Positions 16,735 to 59,391 of a DNA stretch of 64,000 nucleotides are shown piece by piece. The DNA is from Lates calcarifer (Eukaryota; Chordata; Actinopteri; Centropomidae): assembly GCF_001640805.2 (NCBI RefSeq), contig NC_066853.1:23681173-23745172 (forward strand), in the 5' to 3' direction. Position 1 is the stretch's first letter. Each line of letters opens with the position of its first letter. The notes below the pieces were generated by a model that was not told the DNA's origin, did not search any database, and was given only the letters and a program-made list of their open reading frames with translations. The translations under genes were made by a program, and so were the position numbers.

Positions 16735-16809
16735 CACGACGGATATCCTGACTCTTTTGGACGGCTTCCTGAGCTCAGGAGACGTGGGGCTCTCCATGTT
16801 GTTGTTTTT
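16735..16809 (-). CDS. clcn2: clcn2 exon: linker, KRVRIS motif
   Basis: This 75-bp exon reads KNNNMESPTSPELRKPSKRV, RISVV. KRVRIS is identical in mammalian ClC-2 at the same place in the linker. The donor is GTG|GTAAGA (consensus, 16734-16729). The start rests on phase (the previous exon ends in phase 0) and the nearest acceptor, CCGGAAG at 16816-16810. An alternative AG two bases after GG of ATGGAG (16791-16790) would also be in phase and give a shorter exon beginning SPTSPE. Confidence 0.88.
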
Positions 16810-17199
16810 CTTCCGGATGATCAGGAACAAGCACATAATATTAACAACAACCTCAGTGTCACTTTGACTTTGCAAAATATAAACTTCTTTGCAATGCCAC
16901 TCTGACATGACCAAACTTCATTGCAAAGCTGGGGAAAAAATAAATTGAAAACTTTCTGAATTTCTATGAAACAAGCCATTAGCAGGGTGGTGAAGGAGTG
17001 AGTTTTTCTTTAAAGCCTTGCAGGATGCAAGACTGAGACAAAGTGAAAAGGTTTTATATTGAGGCCGACTGAGATACTGTGTGTGTGTCTGTGTGTGTTT
17101 GTGTGGGAGGTGCTGTACTGTAGAGCGTGAAGGACTGTATGTGAGAGATAGCATAGGACTGTGTGGGTGTAGAGAATGTGTGAATGACAGGATGTGAGC

Positions 17200-37646: not shown

Positions 37647-38334
37647 AAGCTTACAGCTGAGCTCCAGGCAGAGTTTAATGTTCTCCACAAAGAACTGAAG
37701 GTCAGACAGGAAATGTTTGACAGTGAATGAAAAACAAGATGCTCCAAGAAGAACTGTAAAAATTCAAAACTTCATACCAAGAGGTCAGCAAAAGGTATAA
37801 AGTTGATGTCCTCACAGCCAGGCAGCAGGCTGACAGTCTTCATCGTGAGCTTGATAGCCAAATCAAGTCTCACAAAGACACAGTGTCACAGAATGAGCTG
37901 TTGGTGCAAAACTTGAGGGATGAACAGGATGCCCTCCTTCAACAGAATGTGCAGGAGATTGAACTTGTGCAGAAAGACGCTGCTGAGAAAGAACTGATTT
38001 TGCAGAAGGAGCTGGAGGAGCTGATAACTCAGCTTAATGATCACCTCTCACACAACCTTGAGCTCTCCATGGAGCTTAAGGCTGAGAGTGAAGAGAAGCA
38101 GAAGCTCGAGGAGAAAAAGGAGGACAAGCCGCAGATATGGATGAGAAAGAAACATCCAAGCAGGAGTCTCTTTCTGATGCTCTCCCTGATCCCAAACCTA
38201 AAAAGACTGAGATGTCTGAGACAACAAGGGCAACCAACACTTCAGCCTGGAAGAGCGCTTGCCACTTTCTGGGCCTGAGGAAACCAAAGAGGTGGAAGAA
38301 GTCAGCAGTGCCTGCATCCACCAGCATCACCTAA
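37647..38334 (+). pseudogene. Broken intronless copy of a coiled-coil protein gene
   Basis: Plus strand, antisense to clcn2. One protein-like heptad-rich sequence can be followed across about 690 bases, but only by changing frame. It runs DKLTAELQAEF... to a TGA near 37730, then continues in a second frame (KNKMLQEEL, an in-frame TAA, KFKTSYQEVSKRYK, then QNELLVQNLRDEQDALL...), and after about 38135 in a third stretch (MDEKETSKQESL...LGLRKPKRWKKS) ending in TAA at 38332. The first two-thirds are rich in E, Q, K and L, like a long coiled coil; the end is basic. No introns are visible. I do not recognise the parent gene. Two frame changes plus at least two stops favour a retrocopy over a living gene. 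Confidence 0.65.
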
Positions 38335-53998: not shown

Positions 53999-54077
53999 CT
54001 CCTATGGGGGCAGCAAAACAGCAGCCCACTCCTACAGCACAGGCTGCTGCCAGCATCTCAATATTCCTCGACTCATT
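53999..54077 (-). CDS. clcn2: clcn2 exon: helix G, NESRN to AAPIG
   Basis: This 79-bp exon reads [15 protein letters not shown]...CCFAAPIG and leaves one base of the next glycine. It encodes helix G and the start of helix H. The acceptor is TTTCAG at 54083-54078 and the donor is GAG|GTGAGT. NESRN and AAPIGG are the ClC-2 versions; ClC-1 has a different loop and GTPLGG, so this exon is the clearest evidence for paralogue group 2. It begins in phase 0, which accepts either the helix F exon or a microexon as its partner. Confidence 0.96.
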
Positions 54078-54431
54078 CTGAAACACACATGCACACATGG
54101 ATTATATTTCAGTCAGTCTTTGGTACACCGAACCATTAACAGTATGTAGCCCAAAGAACAGAAGCCAACAAGTCTTTAAAGAAAAAAGTTGATAAATTAG
54201 CTCTATGTTTTAACTCCAGTGAAATAACATCTGTAACTGTTCACACAATACTAGACTGTTGATGTAGGAAAATAATAATGAGATTCTCATCAAATGAGGA
54301 GTTGCAGTCTAACACACAGCAAGAGCCATACAGAAGAACAAATGAAAAGACTGAGCTGCGTGACTGCAGGATCACAGAGCATCATGGGAAATGGAGGTGT
54401 TTTTTTTTTTTACATGGCTGATCCTACTTAC
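54078..54431 (-). other. clcn2: clcn2 intron after microexon B
   Basis: Non-coding, 354 bp. It ends in ATGTGTGTTTCAG, a short TG-rich acceptor, and has an A10 run (minus strand) about 20 bases after the microexon donor. Nothing else was seen. Confidence 0.65.
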
Positions 54432-54455
54432 CTTCATTCCAATGAGACTGGCTTC
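54432..54455 (-). CDS. clcn2: clcn2 candidate microexon B (EASLIGMK)
   Basis: Seen in sequence: a 24-bp segment reading EASLIGMK with a perfect donor, AAG|GTAAGT (54431-54426), acceptor TTGAAG (54461-54456), and CACTAAC, a near-ideal branch point, about 30 bases upstream. It is phase 0 on both sides. It is a diverged duplicate of the segment at 55707-55730, including parts of its flanks. Inference: an alternative cassette or mutually exclusive partner of microexon A, changing the loop between helix F and helix G. Its donor is much stronger than that of microexon A. If it is never spliced in, it would be a decayed exon, but the conserved frame argues against that. Confidence 0.62.
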
Positions 54456-55706
54456 CTTCAAGCAGCATGGCAGTGATAAAGCGAGGTTAGTGTGTCTGTG
54501 TGTGTGTGTGTGTTTTGCTTTGACTTAAAACTCTGTGGCTTATCTTGGTCTTACAAACTTACAGTGTGAAACTCTGAGTAGCATGCAGTACTGCTGTTCA
54601 CACACACACACAAACACACACACACACACACATACAGAGAGAGATGGTGACAGAGTAATAAAAAAAGGGGTGGTCAAAAATATTGCAAATACAGCTTACA
54701 CTGCAAAGCATCTTCATCCTAAATAAATATTTTACAAATCTGTCAGAAGGTTGGAATATTTCTTCAGAGTTATATGACATATGTTGGATTTTTTCTTGGG
54801 TGCACTAGAGCAGTTTATTCTAACACTCATAAAACTGTGGTTAAAAACATCTCAGGATTTGTTTTTCCACAACTATCTTTAGCTGTGGCCCTCAAGTGGA
54901 CTGTTGGGCATTCAAACACTTCAACGCTTCATGCTATTATAGTTTTGTAATATTATTCTATTCTTAATTTTTTCTGTACAAGTGTTCCCAGGAAACTCTC
55001 TTCAATTAGAAATTGGGCATACAATACTTTGAGTGCATTGAGTTTGTAGGTGTGTGCTGTGATATTTTCAATACCATTAGCATAACAAACTAGAGAACAC
55101 TAAAAATGTGGCCCAAGTCAAAAAGATGGACAAGAAAACTTTTTTTTACTTTTTTTTGTAACCGAACTGAAGTCAAACAAGGGTTTGTCACTTTGTTGGG
55201 AAAAGCCATGAATGTGACTTGTACGACAGATCTGGACTACTCATGAAATTCTAAAACTTGTGTTTCGTAAATCATTTGTACTACATGTGCCACCAAGGAC
55301 CAAATCTATTCATACTCATGTTTTTTGCATGAGACCCATTACTCAAACTCACAGGCGTATTTTTAAATTGATCACCAAGTTTCCAGACACCAATTATGTC
55401 AGGCTGCTGGTTGGGGAAATGTTCAGAAAATGATGCACAAGACTATTTGGGAGTGATAAAAAAACAAAGGTTCCAAATATTGTTGAGTTTGAGTATTTCA
55501 CTCAGTGTAAACATCATACACAGCAGTGATGAAGAGTTACAACAAGCAACACAAAAGGAGAATACTTTACTTTAAAGAGTTAAAACATGTTTCTGAGACT
55601 GGATACTAAAATAAATAGTTATAGTTTGAATTTTTACAGAGTGAATCAGTTTGACAAGATGGGACACGGACTGCAGAGCATGCTGGGAATTATGTGATCA
55701 AATTAC
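54456..55706 (-). other. clcn2: clcn2 intron between the two microexons
   Basis: Non-coding, 1.25 kb. Next to each microexon there is similar flanking sequence (see findings). (CA/TG)n tracts lie at about 54488-54514 and 54598-54631. Nothing else was recognised. Confidence 0.6.
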
Positions 55707-55730
55707 CTTAATCCCTATAAGACCAGGCTC
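55707..55730 (-). CDS. clcn2: clcn2 candidate microexon A (EPGLIGIK)
   Basis: Seen in sequence: a 24-bp segment reading EPGLIGIK, bounded by acceptor CCGAAG (55736-55731) and donor AAG|GTAATT (55706-55701), with a pyrimidine-rich stretch and a CTTAAC branch-point-like site upstream. It starts and ends in phase 0, exactly matching the phase at the IYE/NESRN junction. A second segment at 54432-54455 shares 16 of 24 bases and 5 of 8 residues; three central codons (L, I, G) differ only at synonymous sites. Inference: an alternatively included exon that would add 8 residues to the loop between helices F and G. The acceptor is AAG rather than CAG, so use in transcripts remains unproven. Confidence 0.6.
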
Positions 55731-56617
55731 CTTCGGGTGGCATGGGAGTGAGAAACAAAGTTAAGCTTAAGGACAGATGAATTGCTGTTAATACTAACTG
55801 TGTAAGTCATTGTAAGATTTAACAATCATTTTGTTCAACTTAATTAACAAAGCAGTGTTTAGCACCAAAATTTACACTCAATGAACTGACATTCATAGCA
55901 TTTTTTTTCAATTATATGTGATCCAGTGAGAGTCCTTCTCAAACAATGGCACACTCCACATGTGTGTGTAGAGCACTTGCCCCTGTTTTTTTAAAGTATA
56001 GTATGCTATCTAAAAGCATGCTGAAACGAGAAGCTGGGATTTTACAGCCCACAGGCCACATTAGCATACTGTACTTCAAACTCTGAAGAGGACGAACTAC
56101 TGCTGCAGAGGGACACTTCACACACACACACACACTCTCAGCATTAATATGCCATAAAATGCAGCACAACACTCTAGAGGGAGTGGAGAGTGGGAAAGAG
56201 TAACAGAGGGTTACTAGGAGACAATGAGGATGATGATGAATATTGCATAAAAGGTAGATAAAAACAAAAATGGGCAGATTGAAAAAAATTAAAAACTGAT
56301 AAATTAAGCGAGGGTTGTAAAATAATGCCTGTTTTTCTCTAAATGGAGAGATTGAGCCTCTCCTCCCAGACATTGTGATGATAAAAAGCTGTGTCCAAGA
56401 GGTGAGAAATTTCTTAGAATATATGATATTGAACTGTTAAATGCTCATGTACCAACTGATGGTGAGTACATGAGGTAGCAGGAGAGCAATATCAATGACA
56501 TTTCAATAACAGATTTAATGCTACACTATCACTGTTCTGTAAGTTTCTGAATATGTTTTATATATTGTAACTATATATTTGACTATGTTTTATGTATGTT
56601 ATGTTCATGTATGTATA

Positions 56618-59313: not shown

Positions 59314-59391
59314 CTCATAAATTCCTCCAAACAGAGACATGAACTTGCTGAGGAGAGCAGCACACAAACTGGCGATGTGTACGAATGGACC
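59314..59391 (-). CDS. clcn2: clcn2 exon: helix F, GPFVHIA to FGGIYE
   Basis: This 78-bp exon encodes exactly 26 residues, [13 protein letters not shown]...SLFGGIYE, which is helix F with its GP cap. It begins and ends in phase 0. The acceptor is TGTCAG at 59397-59392 and the donor is GAG|GTAAAT. In human ClC-2 the next residues are NESRN (the exon at 54077), so the reference junction is IYE-NESRN. Here the intron that follows contains two candidate in-frame microexons. A run of 28 A (T on the coding strand) lies 138 bases into that intron. Confidence 0.96.

Follow-up and report, generated by a model that had tools for sequence, protein, structure and literature searches.

Genomic context and host gene

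The window, a 64,000-nucleotide stretch of Lates calcarifer contig NC_066853.1, carries part of a chloride channel gene on its minus strand. Searches by tblastn with human ClC-2 (an approximate query) and with a Seriola relative (P0001), itself matched by Pfam PF00654, place the exons in collinear order, descending from about 62600 to 3798; their ends are approximate, and the N-terminal exons were not found in the window. In a PDB search the encoded channel matches ClC-2 with an E-value of 1e-24 and ClC-1 with 5e-13. Because the exons are ordered and the PDB match is closer to ClC-2 than to ClC-1, the host gene is ClC-2; in the tree described below, the window clusters with fish ClC-2. The parts of the gene that concern us here are the following.

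about 62600 to 3798, minus strand: portion of the clcn2 (ClC-2) gene, from tblastn (queries: human ClC-2, Seriola P0001)
59314 to 59391, minus strand: helix F exon, ending ...LFGGIYE, read from the sequence
53999 to 54077, minus strand: helix G exon, starting NESRNIEML, read from the sequence

In the PDB chains 8ta3 and 7xf5, which we take to be human ClC-2, IYE abuts NESRN with no insert, in agreement with the original prediction that the mammalian channel joins the two helices directly.

Other elements of the window lie outside this junction. Positions 16735-16812 on the minus strand match EKNNNMESPTSPELRKPSKRVRISVV, a segment present in Seriola P0003 and absent from P0001, and likely represent a cassette exon within the part of ClC-2 that is C-terminal and cytosolic. 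A 131-codon open frame with the look of a coiled coil occupies 37883-38278 of the plus strand, within a large intron, and yields no match in Pfam. Rfam reports nothing at gathering score within the window.

Two candidate microexons between helices F and G

The intron that separates the helix F exon from the helix G exon contains two 24-nt segments, A and B, each preceded by a branch-point-like site.

55707 to 55730, minus strand: 24-nt predicted microexon A, encoding EPGLIGIK in phase 0 between an AAG acceptor and a gtaatt donor
54432 to 54455, minus strand: 24-nt predicted microexon B, encoding EASLIGMK in phase 0 between an AAG acceptor and a gtaagt donor
55760 to 55765, minus strand: CTTAAC, branch-point-like by its match to the consensus, upstream of A
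54486 to 54490, minus strand: CTAAC, branch-point-like by its match to the consensus, upstream of B

The sequence confirms what the original prediction ascribed to both segments, namely their positions and peptides, an AAG acceptor and a GT donor for each, and phase 0, and a recount gives the same likeness of 16/24 bases and 5/8 residues. Microexons have been delimited as exons of 3-27 nt (PMC7935315); A and B fall within this range, possess two splice sites each and keep the reading frame. We predict from these signals that both are spliced as in-frame microexons in Lates calcarifer. Directly before B, the hexamer TTGAAG (54456-54461) reads in frame as LK, and tblastn extends the B peptide accordingly to LKEASLIGMK. 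Further upstream of B, two runs, one of TG and one of CA (54491-54515 and 54612-54636), show 92% complementarity across 25 nt and could pair as a hairpin in the transcript.

A tandem exon duplication

Of the eight differences between A and B, six affect the third base of a codon (P = 0.005, hypergeometric test). The likeness also extends beyond the exons. Regions of about 300 bp around A and B reach a gapped alignment score of 37.5, while 500 shuffled pairs score at most 29.5, and BLASTN resolves two pairs of blocks.

55695 to 55763, minus strand: duplicated block, A copy, exon and flanks (BLASTN, 72% to 54419-54489, E 4e-7)
54419 to 54489, minus strand: duplicated block, B copy, exon and flanks (BLASTN)
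56078 to 56140, minus strand: upstream block collinear with the exon block, A copy, TG repeat in part (BLASTN)
54569 to 54630, minus strand: upstream block collinear with the exon block, B copy, TG repeat in part (BLASTN)

The exon-spanning block aligns over 71 bp at 72% identity (E 4e-7). The upstream block aligns over 63 bp at 73% with the same E-value but carries less weight, about half of it being TG repeat. Given that exon and flanking intron are alike in both copies, A and B are a tandem exon duplication that takes in part of the surrounding intron.

The 5236-bp F-G intron offers 24 segments of the form AG-24-GT, 16 of them free of stops, from which look-alikes that are not exons might arise by chance, but just 1 of 1000 dinucleotide-preserving shuffles of the intron contains a pair that equals A and B in likeness (16/24 bases or more and 5/8 residues or more) and the proteins of relatives carry the peptides at exactly the F-G junction, which together rule out a chance or pseudo-exon origin and leave it scarcely any credence. 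The minus strand of the window has 162 stop-free segments of this form and the plus strand 139; A and B are the only such pair among them within 5.2 kb of each other.

Two-unit ClC-2 proteins in related fishes

Three protein searches were carried out, yielding 40 matches from 816 candidates, 3754 matches from 4115 candidates (best 120 used) and 1407 matches from 1440 candidates (best 120 used). Together they give 145 distinct proteins from a database clustered at 90% identity, whose entries are mostly predicted gene models. Since insert-bearing queries were used throughout, proteins with an insert come first in the ranking, and the lists are uninformative on how often it is absent. All named rows among the 145 matches listed are ray-finned fishes; with these queries and this clustering, none bears the name of a tetrapod, a lobe-finned fish or a cartilaginous fish.

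The first search returns 19 rows (P0001-P0019) from 13 species in which two units lie in tandem between IYE and NESRN or NDSRN. They come from Seriola, Fundulus, Girardinichthys, Neolamprologus, Salarias, Pholidichthys, Nothobranchius, Poecilia reticulata, Centroberyx, Chaetodon, Acanthopagrus, Halichoeres and Dicentrarchus. The Seriola pair is one residue off that of the window, and its B peptide is identical. Unit A is five residues long in four of the two-unit species, and unit B of Centroberyx has seven. The short forms of A (EPGSK, EPGTK, DPAMK and EPWTK) are found in P0016-P0019, P0077 and P0079; B, where present in these records, has eight residues. With these 19 records and a one-unit version in gar, the expectation that the peptides would be conserved at the F-G junction of other teleosts and gar holds.

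Equal-length tandem duplicate exons are the usual source of mutually exclusive pairs, but the two-unit records hold A and B together and 24 nt preserves the frame in any combination, so this arrangement is contradicted and strikes us as very improbable here.

Some inserts depart from the common pattern. The single EASLIGLK of Synchiropus (P0026) is assignable to either unit, and the garbled model P0020 (Poecilia latipinna) contains only a B-type peptide. Unusual inserts are seen in Gouania (FENEKR), Denticeps (P0107, NTDENK), Salarias (P0074, QPFENHFL) and Xiphophorus (KESGLVGIK).

One-unit versions and the age of the insert

Single units occur widely: EASFDGHK in gar, EESGEGYK in bichir, EQTVIGNK in the mormyrid Paramormyrops, EEIFIENK in Conger, EPSLIGTK in Polymixia and EPSLVGTK in Lepidogalaxias. 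By their flank (NELRN or NEMRN), 96 of the 145 matches listed are of the clcn2a type, and all 96 carry the unit, in a list that favours insert-bearing rows. Among these, 78 have eight residues, mostly EEPFEGNK or EEPFEGSK, and 18 have ten, LKEEPFEGNK (P0083-P0098, P0100 and P0101). Five cyprinid-type species (Pimephales, Rhinichthys, Pseudorasbora, Ctenopharyngodon and Puntigrus) are represented by both lengths. We read the records with and without LK as a sign of splice choice at the F-G junction; taken with the TTGAAG before B, the LK of clcn2a suggests a shared acceptor region that may have two use sites in clcn2a. Just before the loop, helix F of many clcn2a rows (P0099, P0102, P0103, P0105 and others) has one extra residue, so that SKFMAALFGG or SKFMAPLFGG stands in place of SKFMALFGG.

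A quick tree of 53 rows, built with the insert removed, shows two groups: one of 15 clcn2a rows (SH-aLRT 100), the other of 34 rows from the window's gene, among them the window itself (SH-aLRT 87). Gar, bichir and human ClC-2 lie at the base, where the branching order is not resolved. The row nearest to the window by tree path is Seriola at 0.016, and no sister is resolved. Since both teleost paralogues, gar and bichir carry a unit, the insert would most simply predate the teleost genome duplication and go back to early ray-finned fishes. It is thus not peculiar to the window's gene, and only the doubling is younger, as the one-unit versions in clcn2a, gar and bichir indicate.

Across ten taxa, A peptides differ from one another by a mean of 2.31 residues of 8 and B peptides by 3.62, compared with 4.50 between A and B within a fish, and none of 511 label swaps does as well. 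Because A and B keep separate identities across taxa, the doubling most likely took place before Centroberyx (Beryciformes) and the percomorphs, to which Seriola belongs, parted. The best reading is that it belongs to spiny-rayed fishes. Database rows are isoforms, so one unit in a row is no proof of a one-unit gene.

Optional or constitutive inclusion

Both units could be genuine and yet constitutive, giving ray-finned ClC-2 a longer F-G loop with little splice choice. Some insert is indeed found in 145/145 of the matches listed, clcn2a rows included, and the unit is strongly conserved in clcn2a. These lists are biased, however, being drawn from insert-bearing queries with the best 120 taken per search; Dicentrarchus has an A-only record (P0079) beside its A+B record (P0019), and clcn2a shows the LK alternative. 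We consider constitutive inclusion rather unlikely, and read the records as a sign that inclusion of A and B is probably optional. Four loop versions had been foreseen, with neither unit, either one, or both. A+B and A-only are represented, both in Dicentrarchus, and B-only is doubtful, its candidate being Synchiropus P0026; a fish ClC-2 with no insert is not seen among the 145 matches listed, which come from insert-bearing queries.

A possible switch is the neuronal microexon programme, in which Srrm3 and Srrm4 would bind UGC before the acceptors and promote inclusion in neurons and retina, though we would put it forward with some reserve. It is compatible with the main reading and would name its switch. 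A and B share with the Srrm3/Srrm4-dependent in-frame microexons the length range, the frame, the conserved peptide and the UGC and branch-like sites at the acceptor: CTAAC and three UGC motifs stand upstream of B, CTTAAC and one UGC upstream of A. The layout of UGC and UC resembles the published one for likely zebrafish Srrm4 targets (PMC12626420), and adult zebrafish clcn2a is described as expressed mostly in brain, eye and heart (PMC11948899). They differ from these microexons in forming a tandem pair and in being absent from the ClC-2 structures of the PDB. A further parallel comes from another phylum, where an exon of Drosophila ClC-a needs a related activator in the eye (PMC8797185); there a small-exon programme acts on a ClC-2-type channel, and the likeness drawn here is one of programme and channel type. 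On the other hand, 9 of 16 other clcn2 exons examined have at least one UGC within 20 nt of the acceptor (a count in which e4 and e5 are not trimmed exactly to AG), so UGC is a lead rather than proof of Srrm4 control. Nor does the main text of the zebrafish microexon papers examined name a clcn gene, the string "clcn" being absent from it.

A literature search over titles and the beginnings of abstracts, with subscription journals and supplements outside its scope, found no description of an exon at the ClC-2 F-G site. Public gene models do, even so, already contain the peptides; A and B are undescribed rather than unseen. The known splice variants of ClC-2 (PMC10942593) resemble them as splicing that could alter gating, but those described there are N-terminal, whereas A and B would fall in a loop of the membrane domain.

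Position of the loop and proposed effect on gating

The topology of CLC proteins puts the F-G loop on the cytosolic side. On this basis, and from membrane crossings counted back from the J-K linker, the loop that would receive A and B is very likely cytosolic. The J-K linker of ClC-2 meets the intracellular blocking hairpin, and in the same channel ATP alters gating and the C-terminal domain is mobile and affects gating (PMC10942593).

It is more likely, given a cytosolic loop, that inclusion of A and B would affect the cytosolic control of gating than the gating glutamate directly. The closest guide is ClC-1, whose F-G loop is assigned a role in NAD+ inhibition (table in PMC10604815). The Y261C channel has wild-type-like current and has lost control by NAD+ (PMC10604815), and both G200R and Y261C abolish the potentiation of NAD+ inhibition by low pH (PMC4410605). 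In the PDB alignment, Y261 lies three residues beyond the Glu that occupies the place of the E in IYE, which is to say in the same loop and three residues past the aligned splice junction. It differs from the units described here in being a point change in a paralogue, and the gating effect of A and B, likely as it is, is extrapolated from it. An AlphaFold2 model of Seriola P0001, built on an alignment of 36 rows taken from the 145 proteins, has a mean pLDDT of 34 and a pTM of 0.26 and provides no basis for inference.

In-frame splicing of A, or of A and B, would make the F-G loop 8 or 16 residues longer; the longer loop would be expected to change the coupling of the C-terminal domain to the gate, and inclusion would in this way likely retune the control of gating by nucleotides, pH and the C-terminal domain. 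With moderate confidence, we favour the reading that the duplicated pair, whose peptides stand at the F-G junction of relatives, represents in-frame microexons that lengthen a likely cytosolic loop by 8 or 16 residues and retune the cytosolic control of gating. A broader proposal is more tentative: since before the split of bichir, gar and teleosts, ray-finned ClC-2 may have possessed a splice-controlled, eight-residue rheostat in the F-G loop that sets the nucleotide and pH drive of the gate through the C-terminal domain, doubled in spiny-rayed fishes to a range of 0, 8 or 16 residues and lacking in mammals.

The insert serves as a warning that a functional loop of ClC-2 is not the same in fish as in human. 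A and B constitute a natural series of loop lengths in a loop that is tied, in ClC-1, to control by NAD+ and pH. The gating of ClC-2 is still debated, and fish channels with none, one or both of the units could serve to probe the F-G loop as a relay from the C-terminal domain to the gate.
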